A DNA stretch of 64,000 nucleotides from a virus, in the IMG/VR virus record IMGVR_UViG_3300027754_005988, positions 1 to 64,000 of that record, one strand, 5' to 3'. The translations under genes and the position numbers were made by a program. The notes beneath the pieces were generated by a model that did no database searches, had not been told where the DNA came from, and saw nothing but the letters and a program-made list of their open reading frames with translations. Positions 1 through 38,225 of this stretch are shown here, in pieces (position 1 is the first letter of the stretch; every line of letters begins with the position of its first letter).

Positions 1-1653
1 ATGGCAACTAGATTTGCAATTGGTAGTGGTATTTGGAGTTCAGGTGGGACTTGGGATAATGGTGTTGGGCCAGTAGCTGGTGATGATATATATGCTAATG
101 GTTATACAGTTACAATTAACCAAAATATAAATTTTGCGACATTAAGTAATTCGACTACACCAGTTTATCTTCCTGATAAATCAACACCTAAAATGATAAC
201 TAATAGTTCACCAAGTGGTAGAGCTATAGCATCAATCGATACTAACAATGCTTATAAAGCTTTTGACGAAACTAGTGGTACAATTTGGTCTACAACATCA
301 AACCCTAATTGGTTAGGTTATGTATTTCCAACACCAAAAACTATTAAGAGGTATTATCTTAATTTTGGCGGTAGACCGTCAACTTCATGGACATTTGATG
401 GTAGTAATGATGGTACAATTTGGTCAACGATACATAGTGTTACAGGAAATTCTAGTGGTACTTATTTAAGTAGTGGATTAACTAATACAACAGGATTTAC
501 TTATTATAGAATTAATAGTTTGGTATCACAAACACCTGGAATAAATTATATTGATACGTTTGAAATGACTGAAAACACTACAGGAACCACTTATGGCGTT
601 ACTGGTGGTGGTTCGTATATAGTACCTGCAACATTATCAGGCACAACAACTATAAACTCAAGTGGTGCTGGTCTTATTTGCAATGCATCTATTAATGTTA
701 TTACAATAAATGCAACATCAGGTAATACTGTTAATTTCACTAAAGATGTTGGTAATGGTATCTATATCATTGGACCAGCTATGGTTGGTGGTAACACAAC
801 AGCTTCAGGTATTAGAGTCGCTGGTACTGCAACTGTTAATTATATTGGTGATTTATATGGTGATGATACTGGTACTTGGTATAGTAACGCTGGTGATATT
901 AATATAGCGGCAGCTGCAACTTTTAATTTATATGGTAATATATTTACACCAAGAGGTAACCCATCTACCGCTCATTATGTTTTAAACTCAAGTGTTAATG
1001 GTGCAACAATTAATATAGTTGGTAGTGTGTATGGTACTTCAACAAATCCAACACTTTGTCAAGGTGTTTATAATTCAACTAATTCAACTGTAAATATAAT
1101 AGGTAATGTGGTTGGTAATCTTGGTTATGCTGTTAACAACGTAGGTACAGGTGCATTAAATGTTCAAGGTGTTGTACAATCAACATCATTATCAACATTA
1201 GCTGCTATTATTTCAACAAGTACTGGTTTAGTTACCTTATCAGGTCCAGTTATAAACACAAATAACACAATGGCTGTATATGCGTCTAGATTAAGATTTT
1301 ATTCTGGTACAACACAACAATGGAGATTTCAAGATACTGCAAATGCGACAAGGGTATTATATCAATCAGGATATACTGGAACAACAATTGGTTTACCTGT
1401 ATCAACAGATGTTAGAAATAATACAGTATATGGTCAATATAATGAATTAAGAGGTACATTAATAGTACCATCACCTTCAGATGTTAGAATAAATGTATTA
1501 ACTGATAATACTGTAGGTACAGGACAATTAACTGCTGAAGATTTCTTAAACGCAATAACTGCATCGACAAACTCAATAGCTGTAAGATTAAAAAATATAT
1601 CTACAACACAAACAATGGGTGACCAATTAGCAGCTTTAAGTGGTAGAACTTAA
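1..1653 (+). CDS. Tail fibre/adhesin with F5/8 type C (discoidin-like) domain
   Basis: A 550-residue secreted-type beta-rich protein, low in charge and rich in Thr, Ser, Gly and Asn like the other fibres here. Residues about 60-190 look like an F5/8 type C (discoidin) carbohydrate-binding domain: a KAFDETSGTIWST segment followed by a WTFDGSNDGTIWSTI strand pair and YYRINS. The remainder is a run of short strands (NIxGNVxG patterns) suggesting a beta-helix or beta-solenoid shaft. The ATG is the first base of the window, so an upstream extension cannot be excluded, although MATRFAIGSG looks like a natural fibre N-terminus. Probable role: host-surface glycan binding at the virion tail. The family is inferred from motif appearance only. 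Confidence 0.68.
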   Translation: MATRFAIGSGIWSSGGTWDNGVGPVAGDDIYANGYTVTINQNINFATLSNSTTPVYLPDKSTPKMITNSSPSGRAIASIDTNNAYKAFDETSGTIWSTTSNPNWLGYVFPTPKTIKRYYLNFGGRPSTSWTFDGSNDGTIWSTIHSVTGNSSGTYLSSGLTNTTGFTYYRINSLVSQTPGINYIDTFEMTENTTGTTYGVTGGGSYIVPATLSGTTTINSSGAGLICNASINVITINATSGNTVNFTKDVGNGIYIIGPAMVGGNTTASGIRVAGTATVNYIGDLYGDDTGTWYSNAGDINIAAAATFNLYGNIFTPRGNPSTAHYVLNSSVNGATINIVGSVYGTSTNPTLCQGVYNSTNSTVNIIGNVVGNLGYAVNNVGTGALNVQGVVQSTSLSTLAAIISTSTGLVTLSGPVINTNNTMAVYASRLRFYSGTTQQWRFQDTANATRVLYQSGYTGTTIGLPVSTDVRNNTVYGQYNELRGTLIVPSPSDVRINVLTDNTVGTGQLTAEDFLNAITASTNSIAVRLKNISTTQTMGDQLAALSGRT

Positions 1654-1678
1654 AAATAATTATTTAAGATATAATAGA

Positions 1679-1711
1679 ATCACATTAAAATTAATTAATG
1701 TGATTTTTTTA
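1679..1711 (+). terminator. Rho-independent terminator after first fibre gene
   Basis: A perfect 10-bp stem (ATCACATTAA / TTAATGTGAT, loop AATTAA) is followed directly by seven T residues, 25 bases after the stop codon of the fibre gene. Confidence 0.85.
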
Positions 1712-1713
1712 TT

Positions 1714-1749: not shown

Positions 1750-2790
1750 ATGAACACTTTTAAATATAACTATAAAACAACATTACCAAAACAAGCTAAT
1801 GCACCTTCAGTAACTATTGATGGTGCATTATTTTTGGAATATACTGTATCTTTTTACGTAAAGAGAGAAGATGGTCATTTATTAATAAAAAAAACAATAT
1901 GTAGAACTGGTGAAACAGTTTATGCTAATTCGCATCAATGGTATGATGATTGGTACATAACAATACATTTAGGTGAAACTTTAATATCACATGATATATT
2001 TAATCCAACAGGTAAAGTTGTTTTTATTAAAATGGATGCTTACGCTTTAGGAGATAACATTGCTTGGATACCATATGTTGAAGAATTTAGGAAAAAACAT
2101 AATTGCACCGTAATTTGTTCAACATTTTTTAATGATTTATTTGTTAAGGTATATCCAGATATATTATTTGTTAATCCTAATACCAACATAGATAATGTAT
2201 ATGCTCAATATTATATTGGTGCAACAAATGAAGAAAATTCATTGATATCACCAATAAAAGTTAATGAACACCCTCTACAGTTTGTTGCTTCAAATACATT
2301 GGGTTTAACCAATACAGAATTAAGACCAAAATTAGAATCTCAATTTAAAAAATTAAATAATAACAAAAAATATATTTGTATTTCTGAATACGCTAGTGGA
2401 ATAAAGAAACAATGGAACTTTGAAAATGGGTGGCAAATAATTGTTGATTATTTGGTTTCTTATGGTTATGATGTTATTGTGATTTCTAAAGAGCCAACAA
2501 ATTTAAATAATGTAATTGATTTAACTGGTGATAAATCAATATCTGAAAGGGCCAATATGTTATTAAATGCTGATTTTTTTATTGGTGTTAGTTCTGGGTT
2601 ATCTTGGTTAGCTTGGGCTGTTGGTACGCATGTTATAATGATAAGCGATGTTACACCATTAAGTCATGAGTTTAAGACAAATATATCTAGATTATCAGCA
2701 AATAAGTATTTAGATAGAGTTGATTTTAATCCAGTTTTAATAACAACAGCAGAAGACGTAATAATTAAAATAAATAATATCATTTATTAA
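1750..2790 (+). CDS. Glycosyltransferase, autotransporter heptosyltransferase (TibC/Aah)-like
   Basis: A 346-residue protein resembling the TibC/Aah family (GT9-like) of O-heptosyltransferases, which glycosylate autotransporter adhesins in the bacterial cytoplasm. The central segment MDAYALGDNIAWIPYVEEF at about residues 95-113 matches the family's nucleotide-sugar fold entry (D-LGD-IAWIPY), followed by an ICSTFFNDLF strand-helix. A second Rossmann half holds YICISEYASGIKKQWNFENGW and FIGVSSGLSWLAWAVGTHVIMIS, typical of GT9/GT-B acceptor and donor sites. The C-terminal Cys4 iron-finger known from TibC is not visible. It sits alone between two fibre genes, with its own late-type promoter and an upstream terminator, and directly precedes the SHAEG-repeat fibre. 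The inferred substrate is therefore that fibre or a neighbour; a host-surface target is the alternative. Confidence 0.68.
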   Translation: MNTFKYNYKTTLPKQANAPSVTIDGALFLEYTVSFYVKREDGHLLIKKTICRTGETVYANSHQWYDDWYITIHLGETLISHDIFNPTGKVVFIKMDAYALGDNIAWIPYVEEFRKKHNCTVICSTFFNDLFVKVYPDILFVNPNTNIDNVYAQYYIGATNEENSLISPIKVNEHPLQFVASNTLGLTNTELRPKLESQFKKLNNNKKYICISEYASGIKKQWNFENGWQIIVDYLVSYGYDVIVISKEPTNLNNVIDLTGDKSISERANMLLNADFFIGVSSGLSWLAWAVGTHVIMISDVTPLSHEFKTNISRLSANKYLDRVDFNPVLITTAEDVIIKINNIIY

Positions 2791-2846
2791 ATATTATTCA
2801 TTTTAAATATATTTATCGTTAACACAATTTACTAATAATTACCATT

Positions 2847-2855
2847 GTATTTATA
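2847..2855 (+). promoter_or_regulatory. Putative late promoter GTATTTATA
   Basis: GTATTTATA followed by TAAAAACA ends 15 bases before the ATG of the SHAEG fibre gene. The same spacing and downstream TAAAAACA are found before the fibre at 20707. A weaker copy, ATATTTATC, lies at 2809-2817. Confidence 0.55.
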
Positions 2856-2869
2856 TAAAAACACAAACT

Positions 2870-5095
2870 ATGAATAACAACCTAATACTAAGAATCCTTA
2901 ACAGTCCATATAATGATATCACCAAAAGTAGTGTGTTAAGTCAAGCTGATGTAGATAACAACTTTATATATTTAAAGGGTGATTTAATCTATGCAGCCAC
3001 CACATCTGGGAGCACAACTTACTTACATAAATATAATGGGGAAACCATATCATTTTTAGGTGGTAGTGGTGGTGGTTCTATATTTACTGGCGGTACAGTA
3101 ACAGGACCTACTAATTTTACTAATGGAGTAACAACTAATACAATATCTGCAACAACATATTATAATTTACCTTTAGACGTTTTTGTAACTGGTGGAACAT
3201 ATTCAGGTGGTGGTATTACATTTAAAAATAATAGTGGAGGTACTTTTAATGTTTCAGGATTTACAACATCCTTTTCAGGAGGGTCAGGTAATTGTATTAC
3301 TGATTTGTATGTAACAAATATACACGGATGTTCCCCAATAACAATACATGATAGTGTTAAATCGGTTGGGTCGTCAGCAACTGGAACAACATCATTTGCT
3401 TTTGGTCTTAATGTTAGTGCCGAGGGAAATTATTCACATGCTGAAGGTGAAGAAACAATCGCTAGTGGTGATACTTCACACGCTGAAGGTAATAATACAT
3501 TATCTATCGGATATGGTTCACATGCTGAAGGTGGTGGAACAACAACAATAGGTTACAGGTCACATTCTGAAGGTTATTTGACAACCGCTATTGGTGATAA
3601 TTCTCATTCTGAAGGTGGTATTACAACAACCATTCGTATATATTCACATGCTGAAGGTGTTAAGACACAAGCTAGAGGTGAAGCGTCACACTCTGAAGGT
3701 GTTCAAACAGCTGCTATTGGTAATGGTTCGCATGCAGAAGGTGGTTATTGTGATGTTGGTAGTAATATATATTATTCTGGTGGAACTGCAATTGGTGATG
3801 GTTCTCATGCAGAAGGTAGAGAAACAACTTCTTTTGGTAATTTTTCACATGCTGAAGGGTATTTATCAAAATCTGGATGGAGAGGATTTACAGTTGATAA
3901 TTATTCATCAGGTATTATCACATTAACTGGTTATGGTGATTTAAGTAGTGCGTTTTACGCTGGTGGTGGTTTTATAAAAGATTCTAATGCCACACCAAAG
4001 TATTATTCAGCATCAACATGGAATGACCCTAATTTTGAGATATATTTATCAGGTAATCCAATTAATTATTTTCCTAGTTTTATTGCCGATACTGATAATT
4101 TATATAATCCGTTAGCTGACTATTTTAACGGTGATAATTCACACGCTGAAGGTGGTAATACAAGCGCAATAGATAGAGCTTCTCATTCTGAAGGTTCTGC
4201 AACAACAGCTTTTGGTCAAGCATCTCATAGTGAAGGAAATGGTACTTTGGCTTATGGTGATAGTTCACATGCTGAAGGTTTAAGTACAACAACTATTGGT
4301 TATAATTCTCACGCTGAAGGTGGTGGCTCAATATCAATTGGTGATTATTCACATTCTGAAGGTGGTGCTACCAATGCTATTGGTATATATTCGCACTCTG
4401 AAGGTCAAAATACAACTGCCGTTGGTAATTACAGCCATTCTGAAGGTGATAATACAAAAGCTATCGGTATACATTCGCACTCTGAAGGTATTGAAACAAC
4501 TTCTATTGGTATTGGTTCTCATTCAGAGGGTTATAAATCAACATCATTAGGTAATTACTCATTTGTGCATGGTACAGGTAGTACGGCTTCTGCATCTACG
4601 TCAATAGTATTAGGTAATAATATTACAGGTACATCTGCAAATACTGTTTATGTTTCCAATTTCAATATTAAAACATTAGGTAGTGGTACTTCAGTTAATA
4701 ACTTAGGTATTGATGTTAATGGTAATGTAGTTACTGGAACATCAGGTGGTGGTGTATCTATAACACCTTATAATAATGTTGGTAGTGCGACTACGATTTC
4801 ATGGAATGTTAGTGGTGTTAGTACTAATTACGAAGTAACATTAACAGGTACATCAACACTTAATTTAACTAATGTTAGAAATGGTGAATATGGTACCATT
4901 ATAGTTAAACAAGATGGTGTTGGAAGTAGAACACTTTCATTCGGTACTGTAAATGGTGGTTCTGTAACACATAAAGTGGTTAATGGTGGTGCTGGTGTTC
5001 CTACATTAACATCAAACGCTAGTGCTATAGATTTATTGTCGTTTACATATAATGGAACATTTATGTTCTGGACAGTTGGTAATGATTATAATTAA
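2870..5095 (+). CDS. Tail fibre with trimeric-autotransporter-like SHAEG beta-roll repeats
   Basis: A 741-residue fibre. Residues 1-180 form a fibre shaft (GGTVTGPTNFTNGVTTNTISATTYYNLP) of a kind shared with the fibres at 22372 and 28855. It then carries two blocks of ten repeats of about 14 residues, each with SHAEG or SHSEG, at residues 189-330 and 424-554. This is the head-repeat pattern (Hep_Hag / YadA-like head) of trimeric autotransporter adhesins, which build left-handed beta-rolls. The blocks are separated by a non-repeat insert of about 90 residues. The C-terminal region (SITPYNNVGSATTISWNV... to the end) is a beta-rich cap. Likely a trimeric receptor-binding fibre. The heptosyltransferase-like gene lies directly upstream. 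No S74 chaperone domain is visible. Confidence 0.75.
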   Translation: MNNNLILRILNSPYNDITKSSVLSQADVDNNFIYLKGDLIYAATTSGSTTYLHKYNGETISFLGGSGGGSIFTGGTVTGPTNFTNGVTTNTISATTYYNLPLDVFVTGGTYSGGGITFKNNSGGTFNVSGFTTSFSGGSGNCITDLYVTNIHGCSPITIHDSVKSVGSSATGTTSFAFGLNVSAEGNYSHAEGEETIASGDTSHAEGNNTLSIGYGSHAEGGGTTTIGYRSHSEGYLTTAIGDNSHSEGGITTTIRIYSHAEGVKTQARGEASHSEGVQTAAIGNGSHAEGGYCDVGSNIYYSGGTAIGDGSHAEGRETTSFGNFSHAEGYLSKSGWRGFTVDNYSSGIITLTGYGDLSSAFYAGGGFIKDSNATPKYYSASTWNDPNFEIYLSGNPINYFPSFIADTDNLYNPLADYFNGDNSHAEGGNTSAIDRASHSEGSATTAFGQASHSEGNGTLAYGDSSHAEGLSTTTIGYNSHAEGGGSISIGDYSHSEGGATNAIGIYSHSEGQNTTAVGNYSHSEGDNTKAIGIHSHSEGIETTSIGIGSHSEGYKSTSLGNYSFVHGTGSTASASTSIVLGNNITGTSANTVYVSNFNIKTLGSGTSVNNLGIDVNGNVVTGTSGGGVSITPYNNVGSATTISWNVSGVSTNYEVTLTGTSTLNLTNVRNGEYGTIIVKQDGVGSRTLSFGTVNGGSVTHKVVNGGAGVPTLTSNASAIDLLSFTYNGTFMFWTVGNDYN
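3434..3859 (+). repeat. SHAEG repeat block 1 (ten coding repeats)
   Basis: Ten in-frame copies of a unit of roughly 42 bases encoding SHAEG or SHSEG followed by variable residues and an AIG-like turn. The nucleotide copies have diverged, so this is an old protein repeat rather than a recent tandem duplication. Confidence 0.9.
4139..4531 (+). repeat. SHAEG repeat block 2 (ten coding repeats)
   Basis: A second set of ten SHAEG/SHSEG units of about 42 bases in the same reading frame, following the insert that interrupts the beta-roll. Seven of the ten use the SHSEG form. Confidence 0.9.
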
Positions 5096-5097
5096 TT

Positions 5098-6060
5098 ATG
5101 AGTAGAGCCATATTTAGTGCAAATAATAAAGTAGGTCAAATATTTTCATTTCAAACTAATGTCACTAGTGGAAGTACTTTTGACCCAACTATTACATTTG
5201 TTAGTGGAAGCGATAGAGTTAGTTGGGATTTAGGTAATGGTAAGTTGGTTGCTGGAAATAGTTTAAGTTATATATTTACAGGTGATACTGGTACAACTAA
5301 GACTATAAAGTTAAAAACCAATAGACTTAGTAAATTGAAAGAATTTCAAGCCGATACTGATAGTATAATTGGTAGATTAGATATGTCTAAATGGTCTAAT
5401 TTAGGTAATATAGTATCGCTATACTCTAACCCTAATTTAACAGGTGTGACACATACTTATTCAGAACAAACATTTTCATTTCCAATGGGTTATTCAGTAT
5501 ATAGTTGTAATTTAACTGGAAATCATGATATGTCAATGTTCCCTAATTTAGGAAATGCGCTTTATATTTATAGCAATATTAATTTAACTGGCATAACACA
5601 TACAGCATCAACTCAAATATTTAGAAGATATTACGCATATAGTTGTAATTTATCTGGAAATCATGATATGTCAATGTTAACTAATTTGGGCGGTGCTTTT
5701 CAGATTAATAGTAATAGTGGTTTAACTGGGATAATACATACAGCATCAACTCAAACATTTACACAATATTATGCATCCAATTGTAATTTAGATTACGTTA
5801 ATTTTAAACCATTATCTGGCGCAACTTTTAAAAACTGTATTATAAATTTAAACGGTAATAATATGATATCATCCGATGTTAATCATATATTAGACGATTT
5901 TAAAACAATAACAGTGGCAAATTCAACTAGATGGTCTGGTGTTACGTTAAATATTGGTGGTACAAATCAAGACCCTGATACATCAAGCGGAGGTTACAAT
6001 GGGTTAGCCGCAATAACAACACTAACAGGTTCACCTTACAGTTGGTCAATAACTTATTAA
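5098..6060 (+). CDS. Fibre-associated protein with leucine-rich-like repeats
   Basis: A 320-residue protein starting two bases after the preceding stop codon. After an N-terminal beta domain (about 1-75), it holds imperfect repeats of about 44 residues that include LGN-Y-SN--LTGITHTAS and SCNLTGNHDMSM, in the spirit of leucine-rich or other solenoid repeats (about residues 95-260). The repeats end with a GNNMISSDVNHILDDF helix. Tight coupling to the fibre gene suggests a distal adhesin or fibre cap. I do not recognise a named family. Confidence 0.55.
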   Translation: MSRAIFSANNKVGQIFSFQTNVTSGSTFDPTITFVSGSDRVSWDLGNGKLVAGNSLSYIFTGDTGTTKTIKLKTNRLSKLKEFQADTDSIIGRLDMSKWSNLGNIVSLYSNPNLTGVTHTYSEQTFSFPMGYSVYSCNLTGNHDMSMFPNLGNALYIYSNINLTGITHTASTQIFRRYYAYSCNLSGNHDMSMLTNLGGAFQINSNSGLTGIIHTASTQTFTQYYASNCNLDYVNFKPLSGATFKNCIINLNGNNMISSDVNHILDDFKTITVANSTRWSGVTLNIGGTNQDPDTSSGGYNGLAAITTLTGSPYSWSITY

Positions 6061-6817: not shown

Positions 6818-9800
6818 ATGAGCCAAGAAAAAACATCAGTAAGTAGTAAAAGAATAGAGGAATTTTTAGAGGGTTCGGACCCTCAAAAATATATCGTAGC
6901 AGTTGAAGCTTCATTCAATGAACCTACCGTAACTCTTGTTATTAACGACCCAGAATCTGGCAAATACCAAGAAGACCATAAATTTAAACCTTTCTTATGG
7001 TTTAAAGAAGATATTACAAGCGTAATATATAATGGTAATAGAAAAAAAATACTAGAAGCTGGTACTAAATATGGTGTTAGACTTAAAAAACTAAGAACAG
7101 CTGATAGTAATGGCTTTTCACCATCCCGTATGGAAAATGGTTATAAATATATCGCCATTTGTACCAAATCTTATAATAGCCTCATAAATTATTTCAAAGA
7201 AGGCGGTATTGATGTATTCAAAGAAGAATATAGAACCAATTTCGTAATGTTTAGTCCAGTTGAACAATTTATGATTCAAACTGGTAAACGACTATTTAAA
7301 GGTATTGATGATTATGATGGGCTGCACAGATTTCAATTTGACTTAGAAACAGAAGGATTATTCGCCAGTAAAAATGGTATCTTTCAAATAGGTGTTCGTG
7401 ACAATAGAGGTATGGATTATCTATTGGAAAATGATGGAGAGAATTATCAAGAAAAACGCGATTCTGAAAGAATCATGATTGAAAAATTCTTTAAGATAAT
7501 AGATATCGTTAAACCAGATATAATTGCTGGATATAACTCTGAAAACTTTGACTGGCCTTTCATATTTGAGCGTGCTGAGCGTTTATCCATACCAATCACA
7601 GAATTAGCCGTAACATTAAATAGACTGCATAAAATCAAACGAAAACAAGCTACAGTTAAGTTTGGTGGAGAAACAGAAACATACTTACAAACAAGTATGT
7701 ATGGTTATACCATTATTGATATTTCACATGCTGTTCGTAGAGCAATGGCGATAAACTCTGAGATTAAAGCTTGGGGATTAAAATATATAACACAATACTC
7801 TGAAATAGCTAAACCTAATAGGGTTTATGTTCCTGGTGATAAGATAAACTCTACATGGGCTGATAAGATTAATAAATACGCTTTTAATGATACAAATGGT
7901 GATTGGTATATGATTACTGATAATAAACCATTAAAAGAAGGTTATGAAATAAAAGGTGGTGATTATATTGTTCAAAGATACTTGTCAGACGATTTATGGG
8001 AAACAGAGCAAATTGATAATATATTTAATCAAGCAAGTTTCCTTATTGGTAAAATGTTACCAACAACATATCAACGCTCATCAACAATGGGTACCGCTGG
8101 TCAATGGAAACTAATAATGGCTGCATGGTCATATGAAAATGGTTTAGCAATTCCAGAAACTCAAAAGAAGCGTGATTTTACTGGTGGTTTATCTCGTTTG
8201 TTAGAAGTAGGTTATGCTAGAAATGTTGTTAAACTAGATTTTGCCGCACTTTATCCTAAAATTCAATTAACACATAAAATATTCCCAGATTTAGATATTA
8301 CTGGAATGATGGAAGGTACTCTTACTTATATAGTGGATACTCGTGACCATTATAAGTTCTTAACTGGTAAAGAGAAAAAAACATATAAAGATTTAGAAAA
8401 GAAATTAAAAGCAGAAAAAGATAATTTATCTAAAGAAGAAATTTCTCAATTAAAAAAAGAGATTGATGAACATAAAGCTTTAGCTAACTTATATGATAAA
8501 AAACAATTACCACTTAAGATTCTTGCTAACTCATGGTTTGGTTCGTACGGTGCACCTTATATCTTTAACTGGGGTGATACAGATTCAGCTGAAGAAACAA
8601 CTTGTAGAGGTAGACAATATTTAAGACTTATGGTTAGCCATTTCACCGAAAAACATGGATTTAGAGCATTGGTTGGAGATTCAGTTACTTATGACACACC
8701 AGTTTATATTAGATATTCTGATGGTACTTTGGACATTAAACCTATTTGTGATTTATTTAATGATGATTCGGAATTTATTGATTTAGATGGATTAAGAGAT
8801 TATGAAGCTAAACCATTTGAAGTTTTGACTGTAAATGGTTGGAAAAATATAAACTATGTTTATAGACATGGTACAGATAAAAAAATACATAGAATAACAA
8901 CTAAAGACAGATTAGTTAATGTAACTGAAGACCATTCTTTATTTCAAAATGGTATTAAAATAAAACCATCAACACTAAATAGAGGTAATTCTATAGATGT
9001 TTATAATAAATTAGATAAGTTTGATTCTTTATCTAGTTTATCTGAAGACCAAGCTTGGTTATACGGTTTCTTTTTAGGTGACGGTTCAGCTAATTGTTCC
9101 GATAGGAAATGTAAATACGTATCTAAAAAAACTGGCGAAACAAATATAAATAAAGGTAAAAGAAGTGATTGGAAGATTTCTAATTCTAGATTAGACGTTT
9201 TAGAAAAATTAAAACTAATACTAGAAAAAGAATTTGGGTTGGTTGGTATTATTAAGGACCATATGAAATCATCTGGTGTTTATAATTTAGTTGTCCATAA
9301 AACAGAATTTACTAATAGTTTTTGTAATGATTTCTATACATCATATAGAGAAAAGAAAGTACCTAGTTTTATACTAAATTCAAATGATACTATTAAAAAA
9401 GTTTTTTTAAATGGTGTTTGCGCTTCAGATGGTTATGGAGATGATTTAGACAATTGTTCTAGTATTGGAATGAAATCGCAAGTTGCAATGGCTGGTTTAT
9501 CTATATTATTTAACGAATTAAATATAGAATATAAGATAATCACTAGAAAAGATAAACAAAATTTTATAACGTTTAGTTTAAAAAATGACAATAGAAATAA
9601 TTCTAGTTTTACAAATAAAACAAAAAAGAAAACAAATGAAGTTTGGAAAAATGAAGTAATCATTAATAATGATAAAAACAATTTTGTTTATGATATATCA
9701 ACAGAGGACGGTACATTCATTGGTGGTATTGGATTGATTAACTTAAAGAATACTGATGGATTCAACTTTGCATTTCCAGATAATATTGATAATATAAAAT

Positions 9801-11593
9801 ACCTTGCCAAAGGTTCTCATTGGAAAACTAGTGGTGATGGTGGAAAAGAATTAGTTGGATTGGATGCAGTATTAGCCGAATTCAATGAAAACTATATGGA
9901 AGGTCGTATGGGGTTAGATATTGATGATATTTGTAATTCAACAATCAACTTTGCTCGTAAAAATTACGCTAATGATATTGGCGGTAAAATTAAACTTGTT
10001 GGTAACTCTGTTAAATCTAAAAAAATGTCAGTTTATATTGAAGAATTTTTAGGTAAAGCTATTCGTATGTTATTAGATGGTGATGGTTATTCATTTGTTA
10101 AGTATTATCATGAATATGTTGATAAGATTTATAATTATCAAATACCATTAGTTAAAATTGCATCTAAAGCTAAGGTTAAACTATCAATTTCTGATTATAA
10201 AAAGAAAGCAACACAAAAAAATAAAGCTGGTAACCCTATGCCTAAACAAGCACATATGGAATTGGCAATGAAAGATAACATAGATGTTACATTAGGAGAT
10301 GTTTTATATTATATCAATACAGGTAACGCTAAATCACATGGTGATTTAAAAACTATCGATAAGAATAAAATGTCAAAGAAAGAAAGAGATGCTTATTTTG
10401 CGTTAAATGGTTCTTATCCTCAGCCAATGAAAATTGTTGAACTTAATTGTAAACTAATTGAGCAAGATACCGTAGAACGTGATTTTGATTTATTGAAAGA
10501 ATTAAACATGTTAAGAGAAGCCATTTCAAAATTAGAAGAAGGTGAAAATGGTCGTGATGAAATGATAACAAGGATAAATGATATTAATAATCAACTATAC
10601 ACTGATGAATATAACGTTTCAAGATATTTGGATGCTTTTAATAAAAAAGTAAAACCATTGCTAGTTTGTTTTAATCCAGATATTCGTAGCAAAATATTAT
10701 TAGATATTGTTAAAACTAAAGATAAAGTAACAAAAAAAGTTACCGAGAAACTTAAAGATAGAAGCGTTTTTACACATTCAGAATGTGTGTTGGTATCTGG
10801 AATGCCTAATAAAGAAGCAGACCAAGATTTGTATGAAGATTTAATGAGAATGGAAGATAAAGAAATTAGATTCTGGGATAGCGTTAATATGGTTCCAAAT
10901 AATATGGAAGAAATAAAATGGGAAGAAATTAGACAAGATTGGAAACATAGAATTGAATTGGCTAAGATAGAAGGTATACAACAACAAAAAGATGCTTTAG
11001 ATGATATCTTTAAACATTTAGAACTTACTGATTTAAATTTAGTGTTATCAACTGGTAAATTACCTGTTGATGCATTTATTATCGCTGATGTTTCAGATGA
11101 TAATACTAGTTTAGTATCTAGAAAATGGGGTGAGATATTATGTCCTATTGGTGATATTTTTAAATATGAAAAACAGTCAATAGACAGAGATAATTATTAT
11201 AAATTAGTAGGTATAGAAAATACAGATAACCGATATGAAGAATACTTAAACTATTTAACAGAACAACAAGTATTAACTGGAGATACCATAACAATCGATT
11301 TTGAAGAACTATCTATAGATAAAAATACTTCTTTTGTTGAGCTGATTAAAGAAAATGCAAATCAAGCAATATCAATTAAATCTGGTGAACCAAAAAAGAA
11401 GAAAAAATTATCAGAAGGTGATGATGAAGATGATGAAATGGTAGAAGAAGAAGAAGATGAAAACGGAGATATGGTAAGGTCTGATGATGTTATTCAGTTA
11501 GATGATGATTTTGACGATACCTTTGGAGAAATACCAGATGATTATTCACCAATAGTAGAAATTAAAATAGAAGAAGATGAATGGGGATTCTAA
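6818..11593 (+). CDS. Family B DNA polymerase (T4 gp43-like), intein-containing precursor
   Basis: A 1591-residue replicative polymerase precursor. The 3'-5' exonuclease is marked by FDLETEGL at about 173-180 (Exo I) and GYNSENFDWPF at about 237-247 (Exo II). Polymerase motif A is VKLDFAALYP (about 469-478) and motif B is KILANSWFGSYG (about 566-577). Motif C is split: VGD ends at residue 621 and TDG starts at 979, separated by a 357-residue intein. After splicing the protein would be 1234 residues, well above T4 gp43 (898). The C-terminus is a long acidic tail (GDDEDDEMVEEEEDENGD... ending DEWGF) that might contact clamp or accessory proteins. It has its own Bacteroidota-type promoter and a strong terminator. 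Confident family assignment. Confidence 0.95.
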   Translation: MSQEKTSVSSKRIEEFLEGSDPQKYIVAVEASFNEPTVTLVINDPESGKYQEDHKFKPFLWFKEDITSVIYNGNRKKILEAGTKYGVRLKKLRTADSNGFSPSRMENGYKYIAICTKSYNSLINYFKEGGIDVFKEEYRTNFVMFSPVEQFMIQTGKRLFKGIDDYDGLHRFQFDLETEGLFASKNGIFQIGVRDNRGMDYLLENDGENYQEKRDSERIMIEKFFKIIDIVKPDIIAGYNSENFDWPFIFERAERLSIPITELAVTLNRLHKIKRKQATVKFGGETETYLQTSMYGYTIIDISHAVRRAMAINSEIKAWGLKYITQYSEIAKPNRVYVPGDKINSTWADKINKYAFNDTNGDWYMITDNKPLKEGYEIKGGDYIVQRYLSDDLWETEQIDNIFNQASFLIGKMLPTTYQRSSTMGTAGQWKLIMAAWSYENGLAIPETQKKRDFTGGLSRLLEVGYARNVVKLDFAALYPKIQLTHKIFPDLDITGMMEGTLTYIVDTRDHYKFLTGKEKKTYKDLEKKLKAEKDNLSKEEISQLKKEIDEHKALANLYDKKQLPLKILANSWFGSYGAPYIFNWGDTDSAEETTCRGRQYLRLMVSHFTEKHGFRALVGDSVTYDTPVYIRYSDGTLDIKPICDLFNDDSEFIDLDGLRDYEAKPFEVLTVNGWKNINYVYRHGTDKKIHRITTKDRLVNVTEDHSLFQNGIKIKPSTLNRGNSIDVYNKLDKFDSLSSLSEDQAWLYGFFLGDGSANCSDRKCKYVSKKTGETNINKGKRSDWKISNSRLDVLEKLKLILEKEFGLVGIIKDHMKSSGVYNLVVHKTEFTNSFCNDFYTSYREKKVPSFILNSNDTIKKVFLNGVCASDGYGDDLDNCSSIGMKSQVAMAGLSILFNELNIEYKIITRKDKQNFITFSLKNDNRNNSSFTNKTKKKTNEVWKNEVIINNDKNNFVYDISTEDGTFIGGIGLINLKNTDGFNFAFPDNIDNIKYLAKGSHWKTSGDGGKELVGLDAVLAEFNENYMEGRMGLDIDDICNSTINFARKNYANDIGGKIKLVGNSVKSKKMSVYIEEFLGKAIRMLLDGDGYSFVKYYHEYVDKIYNYQIPLVKIASKAKVKLSISDYKKKATQKNKAGNPMPKQAHMELAMKDNIDVTLGDVLYYINTGNAKSHGDLKTIDKNKMSKKERDAYFALNGSYPQPMKIVELNCKLIEQDTVERDFDLLKELNMLREAISKLEEGENGRDEMITRINDINNQLYTDEYNVSRYLDAFNKKVKPLLVCFNPDIRSKILLDIVKTKDKVTKKVTEKLKDRSVFTHSECVLVSGMPNKEADQDLYEDLMRMEDKEIRFWDSVNMVPNNMEEIKWEEIRQDWKHRIELAKIEGIQQQKDALDDIFKHLELTDLNLVLSTGKLPVDAFIIADVSDDNTSLVSRKWGEILCPIGDIFKYEKQSIDRDNYYKLVGIENTDNRYEEYLNYLTEQQVLTGDTITIDFEELSIDKNTSFVELIKENANQAISIKSGEPKKKKKLSEGDDEDDEMVEEEEDENGDMVRSDDVIQLDDDFDDTFGEIPDDYSPIVEIKIEEDEWGF
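8681..9751 (+). other. Intein with LAGLIDADG homing endonuclease in DNA polymerase motif C
   Basis: Residues 622-978 of the polymerase precursor, inserted between GD and TDG of motif C, the classic pol-c site. It begins with Ser in SVTYDTPVYI. Block B is VTEDHSLF with the expected Thr and His. Blocks C and E of a LAGLIDADG endonuclease are WLYGFFLGDGSA and LNGVCASDGYG. It ends FVYDISTEDGTFIGGIG...LKN, followed by Thr as the +1 nucleophile. The penultimate residue is Lys, not the usual His. Active splicing is likely because the catalytic aspartate motif is interrupted otherwise. Confidence 0.92.
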
Positions 11594-11633: not shown

Positions 11634-12776
11634 TTAATATACCCAGAATCCCATAGGTCTGTAAGTTAGTGATTTATTTAAGAATTCGGCCTCATTTGCA
11701 CCTCTTTCTAATTGTTTTGTCGAAGATAATCTTTCAAGTCTAGTATCAAGTCTTTCTAATACAGCTTTCTTTTCTTCATTACCTTCTTGTATTAACGTTT
11801 CATAATCCATAGTTCTTTCAGCTTCTGGAGGGCCAACAACACCACCAAATTTACCCCTTGTTCTACCAAGTGTTTTCTTAGCTTCAGCTATAAATAATTG
11901 TCTTATAAGTGTTTTTGTTGGTTCATTGAAATCAGCATAATCTAATTTAGATAATGGAACCTGATTTGGCATTTTTATAATATCTGGATTATCTTTTCTA
12001 CAAGCATCAACATCTGAATTTGTTGTATCATAATAAAAATACCATACTTGACAACCAGTCATATTTATAGAACTACCTACACCGCCAATACCTTGTCCAA
12101 ATGATAATTTAGACCCAGGAACACTCAATAAATGTAATAATTTAGTACCATTAGGACCAGCAGTTATCTTATATACTAATTCACTTCTAACAATTCTATT
12201 TTTAAGATTCATATCGGCAGCAGTTAATAAAATATCAAACGCTGGTGCAATATAATAACCCATTCTAGAAAATCCAGCACCACCAGTACCAGTACCACCA
12301 CCAGTTTGTGCAAATCCACCACCAAATCCGTAATCAATACCACCATAATTAGCCAATAAAGCTTGACTAGTAGCTGGTGGTGTTATCCATAAGACTTCAT
12401 TAACTTCACGACCAGCTGGTATTTGATAAACTTGTCTACCTGCTTCTAATTCAACGTAATCTTTTTTAAGTTCCCATGGTCCATTTGTTTGTAACCCTAC
12501 TTGTTTGGAATATGCATAAGTGTATTGTGTCATGAAATCAAAACTTCTAACACTCAATGCAAAAGCCATGTCTATATTATCAACATTATTACCTAATAAT
12601 GATTGCCATTGATGTTCAATCAACCATTCTTGTACATACTGTGCGTAGTCTTCTATACAAATTTCTAAAAGAGTACATAGCATTTCGTCCAATACTTCAA
12701 TTTGACGTATTGGTGCACCAACTGAATGTCTAAATTGGCGAAATAATTTTTCTTTTTCTTCATTACTAACAGCCAT
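11634..12776 (-). CDS. Neck protein, T4 gp13-like
   Basis: A 380-residue protein. The N-terminus FRQFRHSVGAPIRQIEVLDE with a following helix (LCTLLEICIEDYAQYVQEWLIEHQW) resembles the start of T4 gp13 (LGAPLVNVEIT...), a head-completion/neck protein that joins the head portal to the tail. A Gly-rich loop lies at about 145-170. The C-terminal half contains FIAEAKKTLGRTRGKFGG and a charged helix (MDYETLIQEGNEEKKAVLERLD), recalling the gp13 C-terminal helices. gp14-like and gp15-like genes lie a few kilobases away on the other strand, supporting the assignment. A late-type promoter motif lies upstream on the minus strand. It ends at the bidirectional terminator. Confidence 0.62.
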   Translation of the reverse strand: MAVSNEEKEKLFRQFRHSVGAPIRQIEVLDEMLCTLLEICIEDYAQYVQEWLIEHQWQSLLGNNVDNIDMAFALSVRSFDFMTQYTYAYSKQVGLQTNGPWELKKDYVELEAGRQVYQIPAGREVNEVLWITPPATSQALLANYGGIDYGFGGGFAQTGGGTGTGGAGFSRMGYYIAPAFDILLTAADMNLKNRIVRSELVYKITAGPNGTKLLHLLSVPGSKLSFGQGIGGVGSSINMTGCQVWYFYYDTTNSDVDACRKDNPDIIKMPNQVPLSKLDYADFNEPTKTLIRQLFIAEAKKTLGRTRGKFGGVVGPPEAERTMDYETLIQEGNEEKKAVLERLDTRLERLSSTKQLERGANEAEFLNKSLTYRPMGFWVY

Positions 12777-12857: not shown

Positions 12858-14315
12858 ATGATTAAGAAAACAACAAATGAGTTTATTGCATTATGTTCAT
12901 TAAAACATAATAACAAATATGATTACTCACTTGTTGAATACAAAGGTGTTAGCCATAAAGTTAAAATAATTTGTGGTGAGCATGGTGAGTTTGAAAAAAC
13001 AGCAAGAGACCATACTAATGGACAAGGTTGTCCTAAATGCTCTAAAAAAGAAAAGTATTTAAATTATAAATTATCAAAAGAAGATTTAATTTATTCTTTT
13101 AATAAAAAACATGATAATAAATATGATTATTCTTTTGTTGATTATGTTAACCTAAAAACAAATATTAAAATTATATGTCCAATACATGGAGTTTTTGAAC
13201 AAAGACCAGATGTTCATTTAAACGGTGAAGGTTGTAATAAATGTTATTTAATAGCTAGAGGATTAAATGATAGGTTAACAACAAAACAATTTATTGAAAA
13301 AGCTATCGAATTACATGGTGATGTATATGATTACACACAAACGATATATACAAAAAACACAAATTACATAGATATTATATGTAAAAAACATGGTGTTTTC
13401 TCACAAATGGCTCAAGCACATTTACATGGTTCTAGTTGTCAAAAATGTTCATTAATAACGACTAAACCAGAAATTGATTTAGCAAATTGGCTTAATGATT
13501 TAAATATTTCTATTAAAACAAGTAATAGAACAATCTTAAATGGTAAAGAATTAGACATATACATACCATCTCATAATTTAGCTATTGAATACGATGGGCT
13601 ATACTGGCATTCTGAAAAACATATAGATAAAGATTATCATATAAATAAAACTATTGAATGTGAAAAACAAGGTATACATTTAATACATATATTTGAGGAT
13701 GAATGGTTAAACAAAAAAGATATTGTTAAATCTAGATTACAAAACATACTTGGACTAACACCTAATAAATTATATGCTAGAAAAACAGTAATAAAAGAAA
13801 TATCAAGCGAAAAATCTAAAGAATTTTTAGATAATAACCACATACAAGGTAATGTTAACTCTAAAATAAAATTAGGGTTATATTACAATGATGAATTGGT
13901 ATCATTAATGACATTAGGTCTATTGAGAAAATCAATGGGTGCAACTAATGTAGATGGTTCTTATGAACTACTTAGATTCTGTAATAAATTAAACACAAAT
14001 GTTATTGGTGGTGCTGGTAAGTTACTTAAACACTTCATTAAAACATATAAACCTATTGAAATTATTAGTTACGCTGATAAACGATGGAGTAAAGGTGATT
14101 TGTATGAGAAATTAGGTTTTAAGTTTATCCATGATTCAAAACCAAACTATTGGTATCTAATTGGTAACAATAGGGAATATAGATTCAAATACAGAAAAGA
14201 TATTCTAGTTAAAGAAGGATATGACCCTTCTAAAACCGAACATCAGATTATGTTAGGTAGAGGTATATATAGGATATATGATTGTGGTAACAAAAAATAT
14301 ACCCTATCTATTTAA
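12858..14315 (+). CDS. Vsr-like (EDxHD-type) homing endonuclease with zinc-finger repeats
   Basis: A 485-residue free-standing endonuclease. The N-terminal 200 residues hold three repeats of about 65 residues (NKYDYS...IICGEHGEFE...GCPKCS; NKYDYS...IICPIHGVFE...GCNKCY; DVYDYT...IICKKHGVFS...SCQKCS), each with Cys-His-Cys-Cys zinc-ligand spacing like DUF723 modules. The nuclease core follows at about 210-290 (GKELDIYIPSHNLAIEYDGLYWHSE and HIFEDEW), of the Vsr-like EDxHD homing endonuclease type (I-Bth0305I relatives). A C-terminal domain (about 300-485) is nearly identical in layout to the endonuclease at 38693-40243. It lies between gp13-like and the other neck genes and overlaps the glutaredoxin stop by four bases. 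Confidence 0.85.
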   Translation: MIKKTTNEFIALCSLKHNNKYDYSLVEYKGVSHKVKIICGEHGEFEKTARDHTNGQGCPKCSKKEKYLNYKLSKEDLIYSFNKKHDNKYDYSFVDYVNLKTNIKIICPIHGVFEQRPDVHLNGEGCNKCYLIARGLNDRLTTKQFIEKAIELHGDVYDYTQTIYTKNTNYIDIICKKHGVFSQMAQAHLHGSSCQKCSLITTKPEIDLANWLNDLNISIKTSNRTILNGKELDIYIPSHNLAIEYDGLYWHSEKHIDKDYHINKTIECEKQGIHLIHIFEDEWLNKKDIVKSRLQNILGLTPNKLYARKTVIKEISSEKSKEFLDNNHIQGNVNSKIKLGLYYNDELVSLMTLGLLRKSMGATNVDGSYELLRFCNKLNTNVIGGAGKLLKHFIKTYKPIEIISYADKRWSKGDLYEKLGFKFIHDSKPNYWYLIGNNREYRFKYRKDILVKEGYDPSKTEHQIMLGRGIYRIYDCGNKKYTLSI

Positions 14316-17627: not shown

Positions 17628-18659
17628 ATGGAAAATAATAAAATAACACCTATCACTAGAATCAATAAAGAATTCCAACTGTACGGTCTTTATTGTCCAT
17701 GTAGTGGTGAATTGAGATATATTGGCATAACAACTGGATTATTATCAACAAGATTGTCTGGTCATTTAAGTAATCCAACAAATGGTAAAATAGCTTTATG
17801 GTTTAAAGAATTAAAAAAAAATAATAAAAAACCATTGATTAAATTAATTAATAGATATAATTCATACGAAGAATTATTAACAAGCGAAATTAATGAAATA
17901 AAAAGAGGTAGAGAATCTTCAACAGATTTATTAAACGTTGCTGATGGTGGCGATATAAACCCTATGTTTGGTAAAACACATACTGAAGAATCTAGATTAA
18001 AAATTTCATTAAACAATAAGGGGTTGAAAAGGTCTAAAGAACAAAACGAACAAAGAAAAGAGTTATTAACTAAATTATGGGGTAGTGAAGAATGGTCTAA
18101 TAATTTAAAAACTAAAATGAGTGAAAATATGTTAGGTAATAAAAGAGCGTTAGGTTTTAAACACTCTGAAGAAACTAAATTATTAATTAGTGATTTACAT
18201 AAAGGTAATAAATACAGTCTAGGTTACAAACATGGATTAGAAACACTAAAAAAAATGAGTGAAAATAATTCTGGTGAAAATAACCCTATGTACGGTAAAA
18301 CTTTATCAAAAGAAGTGTTATTAAAAAGAAGTGAAAAAGTGAAAAGAGAAGGAACATTTAAAGGTGAAAACAATCCAAATTTTAAATTTAAAATAGGTAA
18401 AGAAGAATTATATTATTTATACATAACAAAAAATTTAAATATTGATGATATTTCTAAAGTGTATGGTTGCCATAGGACAGTTATTTCTGATAACATTAAA
18501 AAACATAACATAAAAAAAGAGGTGTCAAATAAATACAATATTAACTTAGACGATATTAAAAATTATTTATTAAATGGGTTATCACAAGTTGATATTGCAA
18601 GTATTTATGGTTGTAGTAATAAATACATCAATAAAATAATAATAAATAAAATAAATTAA
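17628..18659 (+). CDS. GIY-YIG homing endonuclease with NUMOD3 repeats
   Basis: A 343-residue free-standing endonuclease of the Seg/I-TevI type. The GIY-YIG core is LYGLYCPCSGELRYIGIT at about 19-36, with the catalytic region continuing to LLNVADGGD (about 105). Four NUMOD3-type DNA-binding modules follow (NPMFGKTHTEESRLKIS, GFKHSEETKLLIS, GYKHGLETLKKMS, NPMYGKTLSKEVLLKRS). Two helix-turn-helix segments close the protein (IDDISKVYGCHRTVISDNI and VDIASIYGCSNKYINKI). Its first 14 codons (MENNKITPITRIN) closely match those of the fragment beginning one base after its stop, so the 5' end of the next gene appears duplicated onto the endonuclease. Confidence 0.9.
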   Translation: MENNKITPITRINKEFQLYGLYCPCSGELRYIGITTGLLSTRLSGHLSNPTNGKIALWFKELKKNNKKPLIKLINRYNSYEELLTSEINEIKRGRESSTDLLNVADGGDINPMFGKTHTEESRLKISLNNKGLKRSKEQNEQRKELLTKLWGSEEWSNNLKTKMSENMLGNKRALGFKHSEETKLLISDLHKGNKYSLGYKHGLETLKKMSENNSGENNPMYGKTLSKEVLLKRSEKVKREGTFKGENNPNFKFKIGKEELYYLYITKNLNIDDISKVYGCHRTVISDNIKKHNIKKEVSNKYNINLDDIKNYLLNGLSQVDIASIYGCSNKYINKIIINKIN

Positions 18660-35345: not shown

Positions 35346-38225
35346 ATGGACAACAATTTTATTAGAAAAAGCCCTGGTGTATACAGTACGGTGAAAGATA
35401 ACACTTTTACAACTGCTGGTGCTGGAGTATCATCAGTTGGTTTGGTTGGTGAAACCAAAATCGGACCAGCTTTTCAACCAATATTTATAAAAAGTTGGGA
35501 TGAGTTCACAAATTATTTTGGAGGAACCGACACAACTTTAGTGAAAGAAACTGGTTATCCACAATATGAATTACCTTATATTGCATTAAAATATTTTAAT
35601 ACTAACGTAGCTAGCGCATTATTCGTTACTAGAGTATTAGGTTTGTCTGGTTATGATGCTGGTTTAGCTTGGGGTTTAACTTTGGATTCAGCTTTGGATG
35701 ATTCAACAGTTGTAACAACAAATACTGGAACAACTCGTTCACCTTTAATAACCTATACCGCAACATCTGCTGGTACAATCGTAACTTTAGTTTCTACTGA
35801 TGCGGTAATACAAACACTTATTAATAATTCAGATAGTGACTTATTAGGTCAATTAGGCTTTTTAGGTTTAGCTAACACAGGTGATACAGCAAGTATTGAC
35901 CCAATATATTATAAGTCAGGTACCGTATTTAGTGGTGTTTCATTTAATTTAACTGTAACTACTAAAGGAACTGCTAATGCTGGTACTCTTGTAACTGGTG
36001 TAACAACTGGTGTTACTGTACAATACTCTGGAACAGTTTATTCTGAAATTGAAAATCAGTTGGTAGCGTTATTACGTTCTAGAGCTACTGTTAATTTAAC
36101 AACACAAGCACCAGTATTTGAATTATCAGCATCTACAAATCTTGGATTTAGTTCAACTGGTTCTACATCAGTAACTGACCCTAAAGGTACTTTTTATTTA
36201 ACTGGTACATCAACATCTCAAGGTGCTTTTAGTTACGCATTATCATTAAATTCAGCTTCACCAAACAATGATTATTTACCTTTAGCTTTAGGTAGAAATA
36301 ATGACGATAAAAGTACTGCAATATTTGTTGAAGAGTTTTTCCCTACTATGTTAAATTCTGCAATAGTTGCTAATAAAGTAAGAGGTATTAAACAATCATT
36401 GGTTAGTTATAGTGATTCATTTAAAGATTACTTACAACAATTCCAACCAGCAATAACTCCATGGGTTGTATCTGAATTACGTGGTAATAAAGTATTAAGA
36501 CTTTTTAGATTTGTAACCATTTCTGATGGTAATGCAGCTAACGAACAATTTAAAATATCTATTACCAATATTAAACCTGATGAAAAAACATTTAATGTAT
36601 TGGTTAGAAGATTTAATGATGCAGACGATAGTAAAGAAATAGAATCATACGGAAATTGTACAATGGATAAAACTTCCATTAATTATATTGGTAGAAAAAT
36701 TGGTACTATTGATGGTAATTTCCCTGCTGTTAGTAAATATATGCTTGTTGAACCTGATGAAACTTCTAATACTAATGACGCATTTCCAGCTGGTTTTGTT
36801 GGGTATCCTATTAGAGATTACCAATCTAATTCAAATACAACAGTTGCTAATCCAGATTTGATGTATAAACAAACATACAGCGCTACTGAAACCAAATCAA
36901 AAGTAACTTTAGGTATTTCTAAATCTGTTGGTGTTGATTCTGATTTCTTTGATTACAAAGGTGTTCCTCAAACTACATCACCAGATGTTTGGACAGGTAT
37001 GACAAATGGTTTCCACATGGATGTTAATGCTTCAGCGGTAACTATTGATAAAGTATATATTGTTATAAATGCTAGTGGTGGTACTTACAGTCCAATTTTC
37101 AAATTTGACACTGGTAATTGGCAGTTTAGAACAGATTCTGGTTTAATTGGTGGACCTTATGATAAACTAGACGCTAGAAAATTCACATTTGCACCTTACG
37201 GTGGATTTGATGGTTGGGATGAGCATAGAGATGGTAGAAGTAATACAGATAAATACACAGTAAATGGTACTTATGGTGTTGCTGGATTTAATAACGGAGA
37301 AACATTTAAAAAGATTACCTTATCTGATGGTAGTATTGGTTTAAATTCTGATTATTATGCATTTTTAGAAGCTATTTGGACATTTAAAAACCCAGAAGCA
37401 ACAAATATCAATGTATTTGCTACCCCAGGTATTGATTGTTTTAACCACACAAATTTAGTTGAAGCTACAATTGATATGGTTGAAAACGATAGAGCAGATT
37501 CATTATATGTAATGACAACACCAGATAATGTTGATGGTACTAACTTAACAGCTACAGAAGTTGTAAATCAAATTGACGGTTTATATGATAGTAGCTTTAC
37601 ATGTACTTACTGGCCATGGATTCAAATGGTTGATGAAGAGGCAAACAAACAAATTTGGCTTCCATCTACTTGTTATGTTATTGCTGATTTAGCTATAAAT
37701 GACTCTAATGGATATCCTTGGTATGCTGCTGCTGGTGTTAATCGCGGTAATATTGGTAACGCAGATGGACTTGTTATTCAAGCTAGAAAAGTTCTTACAC
37801 AAGGTGATAGAGATACATTATATGAAGGAAGAATTAATCCAATTGCAACATTTGAAGGTAATAGATACATTTGGGGTAATAAAACACTTCAAATAGCTGA
37901 TTCAGCTCTTAATAGAGTAAATGTTAGAAGACTTTTACTATACGCAATAAAAATGGTTACTGCTGTTGGTAGAAACCTATTGTTTGAGCAAAATGATGCA
38001 ATTGTTAGAAATCAATTCTTAAGTCAAGTTAATCCAATATTGGACAATATTAGAGCCAATAGAGGTCTATACGATTTCAAAGTTGTTCTTTCAAATAGTC
38101 CAGAAGATTTCGATAGAAATCAATTAACTGGTAAAATTTATTTGAAACCTACAAAAGTGTTAGAATTCATCGAAATGGAATTTAACGTAATGGGTTACGG
38201 TGCAAATTTGAATAGTAATCAATAA
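35346..38225 (+). CDS. Contractile tail sheath protein (T4 gp18-like)
   Basis: A 959-residue protein. The N-terminus RKSPGVYSTVKDNTFTTAG...VSSVGLVGETKIGPAFQPIFIKSWDEFTNYFGG is the phage tail-sheath signature. The C-terminal domain includes WPWIQMVDEEANKQIWLPSTCYVIADLA, GNRYIWGNKTLQIADSALNRVNVRRLLLYAIK and a terminal strand (TKVLEFIEMEFNVMGYGANLN) that in sheaths interlocks subunits. T4 gp18 is 659 residues; the excess lies in the central surface domains (about 120-470). It forms the contractile outer tail cylinder. A strong leader promoter and terminator isolate it as a single-gene unit. Confidence 0.92.
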   Translation: MDNNFIRKSPGVYSTVKDNTFTTAGAGVSSVGLVGETKIGPAFQPIFIKSWDEFTNYFGGTDTTLVKETGYPQYELPYIALKYFNTNVASALFVTRVLGLSGYDAGLAWGLTLDSALDDSTVVTTNTGTTRSPLITYTATSAGTIVTLVSTDAVIQTLINNSDSDLLGQLGFLGLANTGDTASIDPIYYKSGTVFSGVSFNLTVTTKGTANAGTLVTGVTTGVTVQYSGTVYSEIENQLVALLRSRATVNLTTQAPVFELSASTNLGFSSTGSTSVTDPKGTFYLTGTSTSQGAFSYALSLNSASPNNDYLPLALGRNNDDKSTAIFVEEFFPTMLNSAIVANKVRGIKQSLVSYSDSFKDYLQQFQPAITPWVVSELRGNKVLRLFRFVTISDGNAANEQFKISITNIKPDEKTFNVLVRRFNDADDSKEIESYGNCTMDKTSINYIGRKIGTIDGNFPAVSKYMLVEPDETSNTNDAFPAGFVGYPIRDYQSNSNTTVANPDLMYKQTYSATETKSKVTLGISKSVGVDSDFFDYKGVPQTTSPDVWTGMTNGFHMDVNASAVTIDKVYIVINASGGTYSPIFKFDTGNWQFRTDSGLIGGPYDKLDARKFTFAPYGGFDGWDEHRDGRSNTDKYTVNGTYGVAGFNNGETFKKITLSDGSIGLNSDYYAFLEAIWTFKNPEATNINVFATPGIDCFNHTNLVEATIDMVENDRADSLYVMTTPDNVDGTNLTATEVVNQIDGLYDSSFTCTYWPWIQMVDEEANKQIWLPSTCYVIADLAINDSNGYPWYAAAGVNRGNIGNADGLVIQARKVLTQGDRDTLYEGRINPIATFEGNRYIWGNKTLQIADSALNRVNVRRLLLYAIKMVTAVGRNLLFEQNDAIVRNQFLSQVNPILDNIRANRGLYDFKVVLSNSPEDFDRNQLTGKIYLKPTKVLEFIEMEFNVMGYGANLNSNQ

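Follow-up and report, generated by a model that had tools for sequence, protein, structure and literature searches.

A TibC-like glycosyltransferase lacking the iron finger and thumb is encoded beside a YadA-head tail fibre in a contractile-tailed phage and recurs near such fibres in several phage lineages

Does a glycosyltransferase gene that immediately precedes a tail-fibre gene with adhesin-type repeats act on that fibre, as bacterial enzymes of the TibC type act on adhesins? The locus lies in the window analysed here, the first 64 kb (64,000 nucleotides) of the 126,969-base virus record IMGVR_UViG_3300027754_005988, in which a tail-sheath gene and a head-tail adaptor gene mark a contractile-tailed phage. 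The genes and elements that bear on the question are as follows.

1..1653, + strand: upstream tail protein with an F5/8-type C-like region (phrog_17517 tail protein, 5e-19); an alternative acceptor
1675..1712, + strand: terminator-like AT-rich hairpin followed by a T-run, closing the upstream gene (z -5.4)
1750..2790, + strand: TibC/Aah-like GT-B glycosyltransferase (GT), 346 aa
2870..5095, + strand: tail-fibre protein with YadA-head SH[AS]EG repeats, 741 aa
5098..6060, + strand: repeat protein starting 2 bp past the fibre; an alternative acceptor
11634-12776, - strand: head-tail adaptor, a weak match
12858-14315 and 17628-18659: a pair of genes resembling homing endonucleases (PHROG 559, 3339, 314), close to the polymerase and head-tail adaptor genes
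35346-38225: tail-sheath gene

The GT stands directly upstream of the fibre, as the preliminary description had it, with both genes on the same strand and 79 bp between them, and the hairpin at 1675-1712 separates it from ORF 1-1653. In the 79-bp gap between GT and fibre a pattern scan detected no terminator, so the two genes may share a transcript. The same description had given the GT a promoter of its own, a claim that we do not retain, as the region holds 39 sigma-70-like sites against 37.7 expected from shuffled sequence.

The TibC/Aah-like identity proposed for the GT is upheld by profile, sequence and structure comparisons alike. The NCBIfam model TIGR04414 (hepto_Aah_TibC) matches it with 195 bits (E 1.8e-57), just missing the equivalog cut-off of 200 bits and aligning over profile positions 46-318 of 374 only; phmmer against TibC (4rap) gives 9e-26, and Pfam Glyco_transf_9 is matched at 1.8e-8. 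An AlphaFold2 model built from 20 relatives (pLDDT 93) has an N-terminal beta-barrel (approximately residues 1-85; AF2 strands 3-83) followed by a GT-B core, and the Foldseek comparison with TibC that had been suggested places TibC first (E 1.4e-24, TM 0.84), the match to LPS heptosyltransferases being much weaker (E 1e-9, TM about 0.5). The NCBIfam LPS heptosyltransferase models score at most 25.6 bits. The GT9 enzymes WaaC, WaaF and WaaQ share with the GT the GT-B fold and a likely ADP-sugar donor, but assignment to this LPS group was rejected, since HMM, fold and donor-site residues all favour TibC.

The TibC active site comprises D110, T226, K230, R286 and W305, and its stereoselectivity is set by P300 (PMC4358343). 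Alignment locates the counterparts in the GT, all on the + strand:

2053..2055: D102, counterpart of the TibC catalytic base D110
2395..2409: S216 and K220, counterparts of TibC T226 and K230 (donor beta-phosphate)
2548..2550: R267, counterpart of TibC R286 (adenine contact)
2590..2607: S281, corresponding to TibC P300 and AAH S294, and W286, corresponding to TibC W305

Residues D102, S216, K220, R267 and W286 are invariant in an eight-sequence alignment of phage GTs, so that, judged from sequence, the active site is strongly constrained; the replacement of T226 by S216 is conservative, and the position of P300 carries the Ser found in AAH, which predicts that the GT, like AAH, would tolerate both ADP-D,D-heptose and ADP-L,D-heptose. 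The donor is probably ADP-heptose, given that the TibC donor-site residues are kept. Synthesis of ADP-heptose by the phage itself was rejected: no HldE-type match was found in 13 phage records with a GT, and the sugar must therefore be supplied by the host.

The GT departs from TibC in its accessory modules. The TibC dodecamer is built by a four-cysteine iron finger (C339, C342, C358, C370) together with a beta-hairpin thumb, and mutation of each finger cysteine abolished heptosylation of TibA (PMC4358343). The iron finger is absent from the GT and from all 20 finger-less relatives in our tree, and the thumb is missing as well: the GT and its 20 closest tree relatives are nine residues shorter in this region, leaving a 9-residue gap against the E. 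coli, Enterobacter and Paraburkholderia copies. The finger-less phage GTs form a single clade (support 100/100). The finger is present in the bacterial copies and in a second phage group comprising L057/L058, Microcystis phage Mel-JY01, two huge phages and G027. The assignment to the TibC family is thus sound in fold, HMM match and donor residues and fails in the defining features of a BAHT (a TibC/AAH autotransporter heptosyltransferase), finger and thumb, and for this reason we do not file the GT as a BAHT; it probably represents a BAHT-related phage subfamily with a similar reaction. A TibC-type dodecamer is not expected of an enzyme with neither module. Recent capture from presumed Bacteroidota hosts was considered and rejected, since a BAHT exceeded the cut-off in 1 of 346 genomes only, the seed MAG. 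A single MAG contained the finger-less type, and the 3.7-kb contig that carries it may be of phage origin.

The fibre carries exactly 20 SH[AS]EG motifs, against none in 500 shuffles, with a 14-residue period and in two blocks:

3434..3859, + strand: repeat block 1, 10 motifs, fibre residues 189-330
4139..4531, + strand: repeat block 2, 10 motifs, fibre residues 424-554

The twenty SHAEG repeats first counted are accordingly all present, half of them (10 and 10) reading SHSEG. The proposed likeness to YadA/Hep_Hag heads also holds, with matches to Pfam YadA_head (PF05658) at 1.2e-13 and to the PDB Hep_Hag entry 3s6l at 1.3e-8, and both blocks form a confident beta-rich region in the AF2 model of the fibre. 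That model is of low confidence beyond the repeats (mean pLDDT 54), and structure search with it gave no significant match. The fibre shares its 14-residue beta-roll head repeats with YadA-head/Hep_Hag trimeric autotransporters (PDB 3s6l, 1p9h) but differs from them at the C-terminus, where Pfam matches admitted up to E = 1 include no YadA anchor; it is therefore a fibre with a repeat module, and its classification as a trimeric autotransporter adhesin was rejected.

Two GT-seeded scans yielded 27 viral contigs, and among these the GT-fibre neighbourhood recurs. A SHAEG fibre lies 1-4 genes from the GT in the window, L004/L005/L012/L027, L006, L008, L009-L011, L018 and L019/L020. Of the finger-less GTs, 18 were placed, and 11 of these have a SHAEG fibre at such a distance; both deep branches of the clade are represented among the 11. 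Gene order varies, the GT preceding the fibre in the window but following it in L004, L006, L008, L018 and L212, while the neighbourhood is kept; the GT has thus moved yet stayed close to the fibre. A scan seeded with SHAEG DNA, and thus blind to the GT, recovered 16 new contigs, three of them with a GT (G026, G027, G035), in each case no more than about 3 kb from a SHAEG gene. Against random placement, GT-SHAEG proximity gives a modest Fisher combined p of 0.008 over 12 lineages, and YadA_head is found in 13 of 22 GT records as against 3 of 21 anchor contigs without a GT (p 0.004), both p-values being rough because the records are fragments and the lineages are not fully independent. In bacteria, the BAHT control genes sit directly before an autotransporter-type gene in the annotated copies checked.

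The pairing has clear limits. The GT is away from SHAEG fibres in 7 of the 18 placements (L007, L013, L014, L016, L021, L022, L024), at distances of 20-60 kb where both genes are on one contig (G007, G015, G016), and three changes between near and far account for the 18 placements on the tree. With the head-tail adaptor, a gene unrelated to GT and fibre, as control anchor, 16 of 80 adaptor stretches contain a SHAEG fibre and none of the 80 a GT, while a GT is present in 2 of 23 large contigs. This control rules out an obligate linkage; SHAEG fibres are frequent without a GT, so the fibre does not need it and the GT is an accessory gene. The same pair, sought in other phages as had been proposed, is thus found in several lineages but not as a rule. 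The loops of the SHAEG repeats are no richer in Ser/Thr in contigs with a GT than in those without, leaving no visible acceptor signature.

Full-length enzymes with the iron finger also occur beside SHAEG fibres. In G001 and G002 a second GT of this kind (a BAHT) is divergent from a second SHAEG fibre and belongs to an operon with an FkbM methyltransferase and other GTs; G027 has a similar layout, but convergent. Beside a SHAEG fibre in L057 (9048-13992) is a cassette of a GT-B enzyme, a DXD-GT, FkbM methyltransferases and a full-length BAHT, and beside one in L210 (8845-13998) is a BAHT fusion with unannotated neighbours; the two cassettes suggest a larger, possibly methylated glycan. We note as well that in L055 (4972-12945), the 735-kb huge phage LR756501, a collagen-like protein adjoins a GT and a GT-BAHT fusion and may be a glycosylated collagen-like fibre.

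What might the GT do? We give about an even chance to its being a soluble cytoplasmic protein O-glycosyltransferase that decorates virion fibres, probably with heptose from host ADP-heptose, the acceptor that we infer being most likely the SHAEG fibre. The soluble enzyme would be synthesized during infection, would draw an ADP-activated sugar, most likely heptose, from the host, and would O-glycosylate Ser/Thr residues of the fibre proteins in the cytoplasm, either ahead of virion assembly or in its course, with the YadA-head fibre encoded nearby as the usual acceptor. Without finger and thumb it would presumably form a smaller oligomer and hold its acceptor in a different mode, and the benefit could be shielding or altered receptor binding. 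Against fibre glycosylation counts the fact that TibC needs all four finger cysteines and the phage enzymes have none. A more specific proposal, which we advance tentatively and with rather less than even confidence, is that a phage-specific, compact TibC-like subfamily has shed finger and thumb and O-heptosylates trimeric YadA-head fibres in the cytoplasm, in several lineages, next to a separate iron-finger version encoded with sugar and methyl transferases.

The main acceptor could instead be a virion protein other than the SHAEG fibre, such as the product of 1-1653 or 5098-6060 or a baseplate or capsid protein, a reading that we regard as unlikely. ORFs 1-1653 and 5098-6060 flank the GT-fibre pair, the GT is far from SHAEG fibres in several phages, and the TibC substrate is no trimeric head of the YadA type but a beta-helix whose acceptor Ser lies in a loop. 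Among L003-L011, however, no homologue of ORF 1-1653 lies beside the GT, a homologue of ORF 5098-6060 does so in L006 only (where it also adjoins the fibre), and no partner other than the SHAEG fibre was seen to recur.

It is similarly improbable, in our view, that the GT modifies a host surface glycan (LPS or capsule) and so blocks superinfection or hides receptors, like serotype-converting phage enzymes. The GT9-type fold and the loss of the finger, which contacts the protein substrate, would fit such a role, as would the non-structural neighbourhoods of some GT relatives and the additional glycosyltransferase-like gene that adjoins the GT in L009-L011 and possibly L018 (DUF2827); yet HMM and structure are TibC-like rather than WaaC-like, down to the N-terminal beta-barrel, the neighbours examined include no membrane enzyme or flippase, and proximity to the fibre recurs. 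That tail-fibre loci collect cargo, with the GT there incidentally, seems very unlikely, since its active site is under strong constraint and full-length BAHTs from another branch, which have GT/methyltransferase cassettes of their own, also lie by fibres, even though phages of this group commonly have SHAEG fibres and no GT, other cargo such as the homing endonucleases is nearby, and the proximity p is only 0.008.

Fibre glycosylation by the GT would have close parallels in the BAHT systems (TibC of ETEC, AAH of AIDA-I; PMC4358343), which share with it the GT-B fold, the N-terminal beta-barrel, the catalytic Asp, the donor-site Lys, Arg and Trp, and a gene position beside an adhesin-like fibre. 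They differ in that TibC has the iron finger and thumb and in that the bacterial neighbour is an AIDA-type autotransporter, whereas the phage-borne GT has fibre and tail genes as neighbours. TibC-like phage proteins are already known, BFVD A0A6J5SVC1 being annotated as Aah/TibC in the databases; this protein and those of LR756501 and Mel-JY01 have the same catalytic domain but, unlike the GT, are multi-domain, and the LR756501 and Mel-JY01 copies keep the iron finger whereas the GT belongs to the separate finger-less clade. Glycosylation of phage virions is likewise known from mycobacteriophages: in Che8 and Rita, glycans on virion proteins are linked to phage glycosyltransferases (Freeman et al. 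2023, cited in PMC11256854), and the citing passage places them on major capsid proteins and mentions neither a TibC-like enzyme nor a SHAEG fibre. A literature search of limited scope found no report of a phage O-heptosyltransferase and no description of a finger-less phage clade or of its recurrent association with YadA-head fibres, both of which appear to be new. If the fibre is glycosylated, phages decorate their receptor-binding machinery with an enzyme class that bacteria use on adhesins, and this would matter for host recognition, stability and shielding; a TibC-type reaction would then also be possible without the iron finger, on which TibC itself strictly depends.

Several further observations concern the wider gene content. 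On L064, a 3.7-kb contig of a Rickettsiales MAG and probably binned phage DNA, a finger-less GT is 59% identical to that of the window. In one subclade an FAD/NAD-binding dehydrogenase-like gene is repeatedly found next to the finger-less GT or not far from it (L008, 12443-13804; L021, 8677-9981; L022, 8706-9995), that of L021 and L022 being PHROG 12409. The PolB-type DNA polymerase of the window (6818-11593) has 1591 aa, approximately 460 aa more than its homologues in L003/L004/L005 (1118-1135 aa), and the middle of the protein reads as intein-like with a homing-endonuclease-like stretch. Finally, a 1380-aa protein encoded at 48170-52312 contains an OmpA-like peptidoglycan-binding stretch at approximately residues 901-970, which is unusual in a large phage protein.
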